A stretch of 64,000 nucleotides of DNA from NCBI RefSeq assembly GCF_002261475.1, contig NZ_NEVN01000002.1, forward strand, positions 310,001-374,000, given 5' to 3'. The position numbers and the translations under genes were made by a program. This stretch comes from Bordetella genomosp. 5 (GTDB lineage: Bacteria; Pseudomonadota; Gammaproteobacteria; Burkholderiales; Burkholderiaceae_B). The notes beneath the pieces are model-generated. The model saw only the letters and a list, made by a program, of their open reading frames with translations, had not been told where the DNA came from and ran no database searches. Positions 4,871 through 7,520 of the stretch are shown here, in pieces (the first letter of the stretch is position 1; the number at the start of each line of letters is the position of its first letter).

Positions 4871-5191
4871 TCAGGGGCGAATGACGATGGAGGGCGAGAT
4901 GATGATGGCGGGCTCGCCCGGCGCCACGTAGTGCGGCTGCGGATAGGCCGCCTGCGGGTAGGCATACGACGGGCGACACTTGCGCTTCTCTTCGTAGCGC
5001 CCGTTCTTCTTCCATTTGCGCTCGACCTTGCACTGTCCATCCCAGTACTTGTCCTTGTACTCGCCATGATGATGGTGGCGGTGACGATGACGGTCGTCAT
5101 GGTCGGCCATGGCAGCCAGCGGGACACAGGTTAGGGTGAGGGTGGCAAGGGCTCGGCCCAGATGGGTTCGCAAAGGCGTCGCGTTCGGCAT
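4871..5191 (-). CDS. Small exported His-rich, basic protein
   Basis: 106 aa from ATG 5191. An N-terminal signal peptide (residues 1-28, ending LAAMADHD) precedes a run of alternating His/Arg then four His (HDDRHRHRHHHHGE), a Lys/Arg-rich core with two Cys (QCKVERKWKKNGRYEEKRKC) and a Pro/Tyr tail (YPQAAYPQPHY). The composition suggests a periplasmic metal-binding or cell-surface protein, comparable to but not clearly a member of the RcnB group. No catalytic motif is visible. It lies upstream of the unknown gene ending at 4191 on the same strand, with 86 bp between. The function is unknown. Confidence 0.65.
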   Translation of the reverse strand: MPNATPLRTHLGRALATLTLTCVPLAAMADHDDRHRHRHHHHGEYKDKYWDGQCKVERKWKKNGRYEEKRKCRPSYAYPQAAYPQPHYVAPGEPAIIISPSIVIRP

Positions 5192-5465
5192 GGAGGCTAA
5201 GGCGCCCGACAGGCACGCAGAGTTGTCAACGGTTCGTAAGGTAGCAACCCGGTCCGAGGCCATGGGTACGCAAGCGTGCGCAAGGGTAACGATATGCAGA
5301 GAATGCCGCGACTGCCACCGGGGAGGCGCGTGGTGCGTGCAACATCTTTCGCCGCGGCTCGCCGCTCACGACTTGCCATTCGCCGCACGCTGCGCGCCAT
5401 GCTCGCCAGCACAGGCCGGCGTGTTGGAGCGGCACGCGCCGCGCGCCGCTCGCCGCGCCGCCTTT

Positions 5466-5705
5466 TCAATAGTGCGGCGGCACTTCGTCGAGCAGGCTGC
5501 GCGGTGCCGACGGGGCATTGCGGCCCTGCTCGCGCAGGTCGTGCACTTCGCGCGCCAGCGCTTCGATCTGCTGCTGTTGGCGCGCGATGATCGTGTTCAG
5601 ACTGTCGAGCAAGTCTTCGGCAAAGCTGAACTTGATCTCGAGTTCCGTCAGGCGCTCCTGCGTCTGCTGCAGCGCGTCGGGGGAAGAGGTATCGGTGGAT
5701 GTCAT
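5466..5705 (-). CDS. slyX: SlyX family protein
   Basis: 79 aa, the standard length for SlyX. The protein is one long predicted coiled coil (ERLTELEIKFSFAEDLLDSL, then NTIIARQQQQIEALAREV) ending in the family signature DEVPPHY. The molecular role of SlyX is not known. It is divergent from ilvA; the 60 bp after its start codon hold the proposed ilvA promoter. The 274 bp between its stop and the His-rich gene contain nothing I can support. Confidence 0.9.
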   Translation of the reverse strand: MTSTDTSSPDALQQTQERLTELEIKFSFAEDLLDSLNTIIARQQQQIEALAREVHDLREQGRNAPSAPRSLLDEVPPHY

Positions 5706-5727
5706 GGTGATGGGCAGGCGAGCGGAT

Positions 5728-5757
5728 TTGACGGGAGGGGGCGAAAGACGCTACTGT
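5728..5757 (+). promoter_or_regulatory. Predicted sigma-70 promoter for the ilvA leader
   Basis: A -35 TTGACG (5728-5733, 5/6 to consensus) is followed after 18 bp by TACTGT (5752-5757), which keeps the T, A and final T of the -10. The start of transcription would fall at about 5763-5766, that is, at or within three bases of the leader-peptide ATG (5766). There is no ribosome-binding site just ahead of that ATG, which fits a leaderless transcript. Confidence 0.5.
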
Positions 5758-5765
5758 CTGAACCC

Positions 5766-5843
5766 ATGGACGCACGCCTGACCTTTCTCGCTTCGAGCAT
5801 TATTACCGCCATTATCCACATGGCGGGTCAGGCCACGAAATAG
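5766..5843 (+). CDS. IlvA leader peptide (putative attenuation peptide, 25 aa)
   Basis: A 25-codon frame opens at ATG 5766 and ends at TAG 5841-5843. It encodes MDARLTFLASSIITAIIHMA and then GQATK: four Ile within six codons (ATT ATT ACC GCC ATT ATC, 5799-5816) plus three Thr and no Val. It is placed between a predicted promoter and an intrinsic terminator directly ahead of threonine deaminase, the first enzyme committed to isoleucine. By analogy with known amino-acid operon leaders, ribosome stalling at the Ile codons would sense low Ile-tRNA. No Shine-Dalgarno is present, so translation is probably leaderless. Confidence 0.7.
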   Translation: MDARLTFLASSIITAIIHMAGQATK

Positions 5844-5890
5844 TCCAGCAAATTTCAAAGAACCCGCCTACGAGGCGGGTTCTTTTTTTT
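5805..5890 (+). promoter_or_regulatory. Transcription attenuator of ilvA (alternative hairpins 1:2, 2:3, 3:4)
   Basis: Segment 1 (CCGCCAT, 5806-5812) overlaps the Ile codons and pairs with segment 2 (ATGGCGG, 5820-5826). Segment 2 (GGCGGGT, 5822-5828) can instead pair with segment 3 (ACCCGCC, 5862-5868). Segment 3 pairs with segment 4 to form the terminator (5857-5869 with 5873-5885). A ribosome stalled at 5799-5804 would cover segment 1, free segment 2 and form the 2:3 antiterminator; a ribosome reaching the stop codon at 5841 would mask segment 2 and allow termination. This is the classical four-segment attenuator arrangement, read directly from complementarity. Confidence 0.72.
5857..5890 (+). 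terminator. Intrinsic terminator of the ilvA attenuator
   Basis: A 13-bp perfect stem (AAAGAACCCGCCT with AGGCGGGTTCTTT) with a three-base loop (5870-5872) runs into further T residues to 5890. It is only on the plus strand, ahead of ilvA, with no upstream plus-strand gene except the leader peptide, so its natural role is conditional termination before ilvA. Confidence 0.85.
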
Positions 5891-5927
5891 CTGTCTCGTG
5901 GGCGCTGTCGAATCACCGGAGCCCCAC

Positions 5928-7520
5928 TTGTACGAGACCCTAGCCGCGCCCGCCGCGCCTCATACCGCCGCCACCGCCCCGCTCGCCACCGATCCCGGAC
6001 AGGACCTGGCCGCGTACTACGCCCGCAAGACCCTCAACGCGCCCGTCTACGAGGTTGCCGTGCAGACGCCGCTGCAACCGGCCGCACGCCTGTCGCGTCA
6101 GCTGGGCTGCGAGGTGTTGCTCAAGCGCGAAGACCTGCAGCCGGTGTATTCCTTCAAGGTGCGCGGCGCCTACAACCGCGTGGCCAGTCTGAGTGCGCAG
6201 GAACGGGAGCGTGGCGTGATCGCCGCGTCGGCGGGCAACCATGCCCAGGGGCTGGCGCTGGCGGCCCGGCGGCTGGGCATTCCGGCCACGATCGTGATGC
6301 CGCGCACCGCGCCCGAGCTCAAGGTGCAGGGTGTGCTGTCGCATGGCGCGCAGGCCGTGCTGCACGGCGATGCCTTTCCTGAAGCCCTGGCGCACGCGCA
6401 GGCGCTGGCCCAGGCGCAAGGCCTCGTGTTCATTCCGCCTTACGACGATCCCGATGTGATCGCGGGGCAGGGCACGGTGGCCATGGAGATTCTGCGTCAG
6501 CATCCCGGCCGCATCGACGCCATCTTCGTGCCCGTGGGCGGCGGCGGGCTGATCGCGGGCGTGGCGGCCTACGTGAAGCACGTGCGGCCCGACGTCAGAG
6601 TGATCGGCGTGGAGCCCGCGGATTCCAACTGCCTGCAGGCGGCGCTCGCCGCCGGTGAGCGCGTGGTGCTCGATCGCGTCGGCGCCTTCGCCGATGGTGT
6701 CGCCGTGGCGCAGATCGGCGCGCATCCGTTCGAGGTGTGCCGGCGCTACGTGGACGAGGTGATCCTCGTGAGCGCCGACGAGATCTGCGCGGCCATCAAG
6801 GACATCTACGACGACACGCGCTCCATCACCGAGCCCGCCGGCGCACTGGCGGTGGCGGGGCTGCGCAAGTATGCGCAAGCGGGTGGCGCCCGGGGCGAGG
6901 TGCTGGTCGCCATCGACTCCGGCGCCAACATCAACTTCGACCGGCTGCGGCATGTGACCGAGCGGGCCACGCTGGGCGAGCAGCGCGAAGCCTTGATCGC
7001 CGTGACGATACCGGAGCGGCCGGGCAGCTTTCGGGCCTTTTGCGCGGCGCTCGGCGCGAGGCAGGTCACCGAGTTCAACTACCGCTATCACGCGGGCGCC
7101 GACGCGCAGATATTCGTGGGCGTGCAAACCCATCCCGAGCGTGATCCGCGCGAGTCGCTGCTTGCCAGCCTGCGCGATCAGGGCTTTTCGGTTCTGGATC
7201 TGACGGACAACGAATTCGCCAAGCTGCACGTACGGCACATGGTGGGCGGCCGGGCCGACAACATCGAGGACGAGCGCGTGCTTCGCTTCGAGTTTCCCGA
7301 GCGGCCGGGCGCGCTGTTCGATTTCTTGAGCAAGCTGGGCGGGCGCTGGAACATCACGATGTTCCATTACCGCAATCACGGCGCGGCCGAGGGTAGGGCG
7401 GTGGCGGGCCTGCAAGTGCCCGCAGAAGAACGCGACCGCTTGCCGGAGGTGCTCGACGCGATGGGCTACCCGTATTGGGACGAGACCGGCAATCCGGCCT
7501 ATCGGATGTTCGTGCGCTGA
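5928..7520 (+). CDS. ilvA: Threonine ammonia-lyase, biosynthetic
   Basis: PLP enzyme converting threonine to 2-oxobutanoate, the first step of isoleucine synthesis. The fold-type II catalytic domain has the PLP lysine in SFKVRGAYN, the SAGNHAQG loop and the glycine-rich phosphate loop VGGGGLIAG; two C-terminal ACT-like domains (ERPGSFRAF and ERPGALFDF) give isoleucine/valine feedback control. I place the start at TTG 5928 because GGAG (5918-5921) lies six bases ahead; the in-frame GTG 5898 is longer by ten codons but directly abuts the terminator U-tract and has no ribosome site. About 530 aa, slightly longer than E. coli IlvA owing to an Ala/Pro-rich N-terminus. Expression is probably set by the attenuator upstream. 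Confidence 0.95.
   Translation: MYETLAAPAAPHTAATAPLATDPGQDLAAYYARKTLNAPVYEVAVQTPLQPAARLSRQLGCEVLLKREDLQPVYSFKVRGAYNRVASLSAQERERGVIAASAGNHAQGLALAARRLGIPATIVMPRTAPELKVQGVLSHGAQAVLHGDAFPEALAHAQALAQAQGLVFIPPYDDPDVIAGQGTVAMEILRQHPGRIDAIFVPVGGGGLIAGVAAYVKHVRPDVRVIGVEPADSNCLQAALAAGERVVLDRVGAFADGVAVAQIGAHPFEVCRRYVDEVILVSADEICAAIKDIYDDTRSITEPAGALAVAGLRKYAQAGGARGEVLVAIDSGANINFDRLRHVTERATLGEQREALIAVTIPERPGSFRAFCAALGARQVTEFNYRYHAGADAQIFVGVQTHPERDPRESLLASLRDQGFSVLDLTDNEFAKLHVRHMVGGRADNIEDERVLRFEFPERPGALFDFLSKLGGRWNITMFHYRNHGAAEGRAVAGLQVPAEERDRLPEVLDAMGYPYWDETGNPAYRMFVR

Follow-up and report, generated by a model that had tools for sequence, protein, structure and literature searches.

The window analysed here, a stretch of 64,000 nucleotides from Bordetella genomosp. 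5, carries a second copy of ilvA. The gene starts with TTG at 5928 and encodes a threonine ammonia-lyase of the biosynthetic type with C-terminal regulatory domains (NCBIfam TIGR01124, 777.7 bits). The first-pass annotation had proposed that a complete Ile-codon attenuator lies directly ahead of this gene. The features of the region are the following:

5466-5705, minus strand: divergent slyX (Pfam SlyX, 66.8 bits), just upstream of the leader promoter
5728-5757, plus strand: putative promoter, with -35 TTGACG (5728-5733), an 18-nt spacer and a weak -10 TACTGT (5752-5757)
5766-5843, plus strand: leader ORF of 25 codons, MDARLTFLASSIITAIIHMAGQATK, ATG to TAG, with no Shine-Dalgarno (SD) sequence and probably leaderless
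5799-5816, plus strand: Ile codons ATT ATT .. .. ATT ATC
5806-5812, plus strand: arm 1, CCGCCAT, placed by the RF00624 alignment and covarying with arm 2
5820-5828, plus strand: arm 2, ATGGCGGGT, which pairs with arm 1 or, through its 5822-5828, with 5862-5868 of arm 3
5857-5869, plus strand: arm 3, the 5' half of the terminator
5873-5890, plus strand: arm 4 and U-tract, the 3' half of the terminator
5891-5899, plus strand: arm 5, CTGTCTCGT, complementary to 5870-5878, which could pair with freed arm 4 (moderate support)
5893-5938, plus strand: predicted hairpin over the ilvA SD sequence CGGAG (5917-5921) and start codon, with covariation in relatives
5928-7520, plus strand: ilvA, threonine ammonia-lyase, with two Thr_dehydrat_C stretches; the additional ilvA of this genome

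Direct reading of 5766-5843 bore out the proposed frame of 25 codons with four Ile codons in six (ATT ATT ACC GCC ATT ATC, 5799-5816), and these codons do overlap arm 1. The frame stays open 5' of 5766, the mechanical ORF beginning at 5109, so that the choice of 5766 as the leader start rests on homology and on promoter spacing. The window leader stops four codons later than the leaders of most relatives. A ribosome on the second Ile pair would cover arm 2; judging from this geometry, the first Ile pair, rather than all four codons, is therefore the likely sensor. One site in the 64-kb window, both strands considered, combines an Ile cluster (four in six) with a U-tract terminator of 8 or more pairs that follows within 100 nt; six random 64-kb sequences from a first-order Markov model, each read on one strand, contained no such site. 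The locus thus carries a short leader ORF with clustered codons of the pathway amino acid, which is conserved in relatives.

Regarding the RNA structure, the terminator stem 5857-5869/5873-5885 comprises 13 pairs, a loop of 3 and a U-tract. Since the upstream slyX is divergent, it has no need of this terminator. The predicted folding energies were -11.3 kcal/mol for the 1:2 pairing alone and -20.9 kcal/mol for 3:4. When the RNA was folded with arm 1 masked and before arm 4 is made, 2:3 formed at a predicted -13.1 kcal/mol, and the three energies would fit the classical race model. None of 200 shuffles folded as well as the leader 5766-5893 (z -5.8). The pairings 1:2, 2:3 and 3:4 are mutually exclusive, arm 2 being common to the first two (5820-5828 with arm 1, 5822-5828 with arm 3), and the intrinsic terminator precedes the threonine deaminase gene. 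On these points the earlier description was upheld by folding, covariation and complementarity, the support being covariation for 1:2 and complementarity with conservation for 2:3 and 3:4. The minimum-energy fold contains in addition a 7-bp pairing, GCCTGAC/GTCAGGC, between 5776-5782 and 5827-5833, by which the edge of arm 2 would be tied up in a wholly untranslated leader.

The element matches the Rfam family RF00624 (P9) over 5796-5883 and over model positions 1-74 of 74, with 62.5 bits against a cut-off of 43. This family is typed as Gene and named Pseudomonas sRNA. Its consensus begins with AUUAUUAUUACCGCC, that is, with Ile codons, and its arms 1:2 and 3:4 are the same as those described here; its model covers neither the start of the leader nor the promoter or SD hairpin. 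Whereas P9 is typed as a gene or sRNA in Rfam, the present evidence points to a family of cis-acting Ile attenuators. The Rfam Thr_leader model gave 24.1, below its cut-off of 55, and no T-box was detected among the Rfam matches up to E 5 in 5000-6500. Proteobacterial attenuators are said to have been surveyed comparatively by Vitreschak and others in 2004. In the open-licence literature no paper naming P9 as a leader was found, although an earlier description may exist, and none of the titles listed there on ilvA or ilv attenuation and leaders concerned this element. The word ilvA is absent from the available parts of a genome-wide attenuator survey (PMC2965389) and of two Pseudomonas sRNA papers (PMC2375449, PMC3349714). 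The first-pass annotation knew of no described stand-alone ilvA leader in this group; the element itself is already catalogued as RF00624, and the Ile leader is limited neither to ilvA nor to the bacterial group of the window. As far as the literature was searched, the reassignment of P9 is new, as are its SD hairpin, its probable leaderless reading and its occurrence before genes without a known isoleucine link.

In the family of the window, RF00624 matches with E <= 0.001 were obtained in 15 of 151 genomes, 10 of them above the cut-off. A first MAFFT alignment of 22 leaders (A1) put arm 3 one base off; a model, R1, was therefore built from 10 well-aligned leaders (A2), followed by realignment. 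R1 matched 90 of the 399 genomes of the order at E <= 0.01. Fifteen of these genomes had matches of at least 35 bits, and 14 were judged to hold true members, the match in the other (G245) being rejected on reading. In the class, 51 of 369 genomes were matched, five of them at 35 bits or more, and the phylum search gave matches at E <= 1e-5 in 15 of 299 genomes, three of which lie outside the class of the window. Among 49 Pseudomonas-type genomes, drawn from 50 of 80 listed IlvA loci, 30 had an R1 match at E <= 1e-5. The genome searches were strictly filtered, weak matches being lost. The set of relatives used below consists of 68 elements from the family, order, class and Pseudomonas-type searches, the phylum loci being excluded. 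Other matches stand outside this set: L127 (37.1 bits), L128, L129 and L147-L149 (31-33 bits) proved on reading to be bare terminators, and the further weak R1 matches of the order and class as well as the RF00624 matches L029 and L030 were left aside.

Lack of conservation of the codons and arms in relatives had been set beforehand as what would refute the attenuator. In Pseudomonas, and likewise within the family and order of the window, homologous leaders with conserved Ile codons and arms stand ahead of ilvA. The structure alignment (A3) comprises 44 rows, 43 of them distinct, including two antisense terminator rows (L009, L145). This alignment leans towards the 1:2 and 3:4 structure, having been fitted to it. 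In helix 1:2, 5 of the 7 pairs are changed on both sides, and the outermost pair fails in 17 of 41 rows. Over the structure as a whole, 23 cells were changed on both sides compared to 7.3 in shuffles (0/500 as high), and 93.7% of the cells were paired compared to at most 54.8% for slid registers. Helix 2:3, to which the alignment was not fitted, had 91.1% of its cells paired in the 43 distinct rows, against at most 59.3% in slid registers. It hardly covaries, with 2 cells changed on both sides, and 125 of 500 shuffles reached its paired percentage; as arm 3 scarcely varies, the case for 2:3 is one of conservation and complementarity. At the level of the peptide, the aligned first Ile pair is Ile-Ile in 60 of the 68 leaders, Met-Ile in seven and Leu-Ile in one, and 57 leaders end with Gly and then the stop codon, directly after arm 2 in the alignment.

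The consensus promoter scan found no promoter ahead of the window leader, the putative one being too weak for it. Among the relatives, the leader start was taken as the nearest in-frame ATG (GTG in one case) at least four codons before the Ile pair, promoters being ignored. In 54 of 68 members, the strongest -35 candidate begins 35-38 nt ahead of this codon. At least five of the six -35 letters are present within 60 nt upstream in 55 of 68; a control region lying 160-220 nt upstream gave 11, counted over the rows long enough to reach it. For the -10, the search was confined to hexamers whose end lies 0-14 nt ahead of the start codon, and in 50 of 68 the best one ends at a distance of 6-7 nt; in the window, the ATG lies 8 nt after the weak -10-like box. 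From these spacings, transcription should start at, or a few bases from, the leader start codon. In 55 of 68 the distance from the best -10-like box to the leader start is 6-8 nt, so that the mRNA from which the peptide is translated is probably leaderless. No Shine-Dalgarno signal was detected before the 68 leaders, the median duplex energy being -1.7 compared to -2.2 for shuffled sequences, with values below -6 in 4 of 68 in both cases. A leaderless attenuator peptide is known from trpL of Sinorhizobium meliloti, where attenuation yields an RNA whose first bases are the ATG of the leader ORF (PMC7298713).

Between the terminator and the gene, a hairpin, often of the form CTCCTGG..CCAGGAG, pairs the SD sequence. 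At least four of the six SD letters are paired in 52 of the 66 members tested, with a mean z of -1.4 against 100 letter shuffles, the automatic choice of the gene start being wrong for some of these 66. In the 56 usable members (for the other 12 of 68 the automatic choice gave no gene start, or one beyond the usable range), 72.3% of the SD-helix cells were paired compared to at most 50.3% in slid registers, and 33 cells were changed on both sides compared to 16.8 in shuffles (0/500 as high). For a chosen subset of 46 members, 77.0% were paired against 51.4% slid. In either count, two of the five measures fell within the shuffles, namely the number of pairs with changes on both sides (219/500 over the 56 members) and of further pair types (100/500). 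As modelled, the hairpin would probably lower the translation of leaky read-through.

The 5' part of this hairpin is often complementary to arm 4. Natural pairs of arms 4 and 5 averaged -13.4 kcal/mol compared to -12.7 kcal/mol for swapped ones, a difference equalled in none of 2000 permutations and to which relatedness may add. The mean z of the 4:5 pairing was -1.2, with 19 of 68 members below 0.05; the 29 Pseudomonas ilvA members averaged a z of about -0.2 and lent it no support. Arm 4 is altered in ten members; of these, L028, L031 and L115 have their own arm 5 in the best tenth, and no clear preference was seen for L010, L172 and L207. A free arm 4 cut the cost of opening the SD sequence by more than 1 kcal/mol in 24 of 60 members, compared to 10 with a shuffled arm 4, and raised it in 12 of 60. 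In the window the predicted cost fell from 6.5 to 4.3 kcal/mol with a free arm 4 and was 7.9 kcal/mol with a shuffled one.

Taken together, these results argue, with a probability that we put at roughly 0.88, that 5766-5890 is a ribosome-mediated attenuator which senses charged tRNA-Ile and controls the second, probably horizontally acquired ilvA. When isoleucine is plentiful, the ribosome would pass the Ile codons and reach the stop codon, arm 2 would be either covered or paired with arm 1, and 3:4 would form and terminate transcription. When Ile-tRNA is short, the ribosome would stall at the first Ile pair and cover arm 1; arm 2 would then capture arm 3, the terminator would not form and ilvA would be transcribed. 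The mechanism would be that of classical Ile attenuation, but in a mobile, probably leaderless and possibly two-level form.

In the enteric ilvGMEDA and thr leaders, a peptide rich in the controlled amino acid and arms 1-4 lead to a terminator before the gene. The logic proposed here is the same, but it serves a single ilvA target, is probably leaderless and includes an extra SD hairpin, and the relatives also precede non-biosynthetic genes. T-boxes and riboswitches act on amino-acid genes of Gram-positive bacteria through transcriptional control by a 5' RNA; control by a 5' RNA is shared with the present element, which differs in using a translated leader. The logic of enteric-type leader attenuators is set out in PMC1183508. 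The likeness drawn here to S. meliloti trpL (rnTrpL) is one of mechanism, Trp being sensed there and Ile here.

The genes behind the leaders bear on what is sensed. The 68 leaders are followed by ilvA in 38 cases, AAA_33 in 12, PhzF in five, and a GNAT gene and another P-loop kinase in one each; SnoaL/DUF4440 follows 10 of 68, either alone, with AAA_33 behind it, or fused to AAA_33. Pfam was run on 35 proteins, those of the window ilvA and 34 from leader loci (three being second genes and four loci lying outside the 68), and the remaining genes were assigned by visual inspection of their translated beginnings. In these runs L175 and L247, both P-loop kinases, stayed below every Pfam cut-off. 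The AAA_33, GNAT and SnoaL genes would suit a leader that responds to another cause of ribosome stalling, such as an antibiotic or nascent-peptide arrest, with the Ile codons as an arrest motif, as would the facts that the non-ilvA genes are not known to be biosynthetic and that the PhzF leaders hold only one or two Ile codons. We consider this unlikely, given that ilvA is the commonest target named above, that the residues flanking the Ile pair vary between leaders and that all three Ile codons are used (ATT 193, ATC 44, ATA 6). Isoleucine is also the commonest leader residue (18.3%), with at least three per leader in 57 of 68 and one or two in the other 11, an enrichment that is partly built in among R1 matches because the R1 seeds and search patterns hold Ile codons. 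The PhzF leaders with one or two Ile codons (L121, L124, L125, L173, L174) share a conserved RMI core.

A different objection is that P9 might be a trans-acting small RNA that merely lies upstream of ilvA, its terminated transcript being the functional product. The Rfam typing agrees with this, termination would yield a discrete RNA of about 120 nt, and the attenuated trpL RNA of Sinorhizobium also acts in trans, experimentally so for S. meliloti rnTrpL (PMC7298713), so that the two roles can coexist. We nevertheless hold a purely trans-acting P9 to be very improbable: a recognisable gene follows 67 of 68 members (the exception being L208), the Ile ORF is conserved in frame, the arms are mutually exclusive and the SD hairpin often adjoins, all of which argue for action in cis. 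Finally, a plain intrinsic terminator beside a chance Ile-rich ORF, a description that fits the weak matches read as bare terminators in other genomes (L127-L129, L147-L149), is contradicted at this locus by the conserved leader, the covariation and the chance test and can practically be dismissed.

The gene ilvA is present in all 151 genomes of the family, and seven of them, including that of the window, hold a second copy. In six of the seven, the listed second copy begins just after a P9 match; in the seventh, G050, the gene behind the P9 match is of the ilvA type (L023, assigned to PALP by Pfam). Among the copies listed, no family P9 match lies at a housekeeping ilvA, and the housekeeping IlvA proteins are 50-58% identical to that of the window. 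The nearest IlvA proteins in named genomes, taken as the best 80 of 591, are 70-77% identical over the matched part and belong by title to Pseudomonas and close genera, save for one MAG titled Paucimonas. In a quick tree of 73 proteins, the window IlvA clusters with Pseudomonas IlvAs that bear leaders, falling inside a group of 25, of which 24 have leaders (SH-aLRT 94, inner node 91, both under the star level of 95), a place that is unsure because its end branch of 0.52 was flagged as long. The leader-bearing IlvAs form three separate groups, with 6 label changes, 5 of them forced by starred branches; on this basis, leader and gene have probably been separated and rejoined on more than one occasion.

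Four leader-controlled IlvAs (L197, L201, L203, L023) consist of PALP without the C-terminal regulatory domain, as if attenuation were standing in for feedback inhibition. Pseudomonas congelans DSM 14939 has two closely related ilvA copies, L063 and L088, and its only R1 match at E <= 1e-5 is at L063, which provides a natural test pair.

On a more tentative footing, P9 may be a mobile and self-contained sensor of tRNA-Ile charging, in which a chain of five competing pairings couples transcription and translation and which is placed as a cassette before diverse genes; we regard this wider reading as possible but doubtful. Isoleucine shortage would here favour 2:3, arm 4 would be freed, and 4:5 would form and loosen the SD hairpin. 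If so, the AAA_33, SnoaL/DUF4440, GNAT and PhzF genes would belong to an unrecognised response to failing Ile-tRNA charging, triggered for instance by inhibitors of IleRS or by isoleucine analogues.

The main reading, that of an Ile attenuator, would give a function to an RNA family listed by Rfam as an sRNA, and annotated P9 copies would become testable Ile-charging sensors. Since uncharacterised genes such as SnoaL/DUF4440 with AAA_33 also lie behind this leader, it would predict when they are used and hint at their role. Leaderless translation and an SD hairpin, both predicted here, are unusual design features open to simple reporters.

The genome of the window holds a second, weaker P9-like member, L010 1477-1999 (C1:56257), with 39.5 bits and the leader MRTPRHTARIIRTIL before a SnoaL/DUF4440 gene. 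SnoaL/DUF4440 and AAA_33 genes are adjacent behind the Ile leader in L022 and L206 (by Pfam) and fused in L115 (by Pfam) and in L118 and L122 (by length and by eye), which suggests that the two form a functional pair. Reading AAA_33 as a homoserine kinase is not claimed, the match having 21.2 bits against a cut-off of 197. A link to defence systems was likewise dropped, the PADLOC matches being weak only (best 1.1e-4, 20.8 bits). In NCBIfam, the GNAT gene is closest to a GNAT-bearing isoleucyl-tRNA synthetase, matching its acetyltransferase part with 63.0 bits where the cut-off is 1999; this similarity of acetyltransferase domains offers at most a hint of a link to Ile-tRNA. The SnoaL part of L115 resembles YybH (2gxf, 8.5e-36), and in L174 the PhzF-type gene is followed by an FMN_bind_2 gene, which we take to be PaiB-like.
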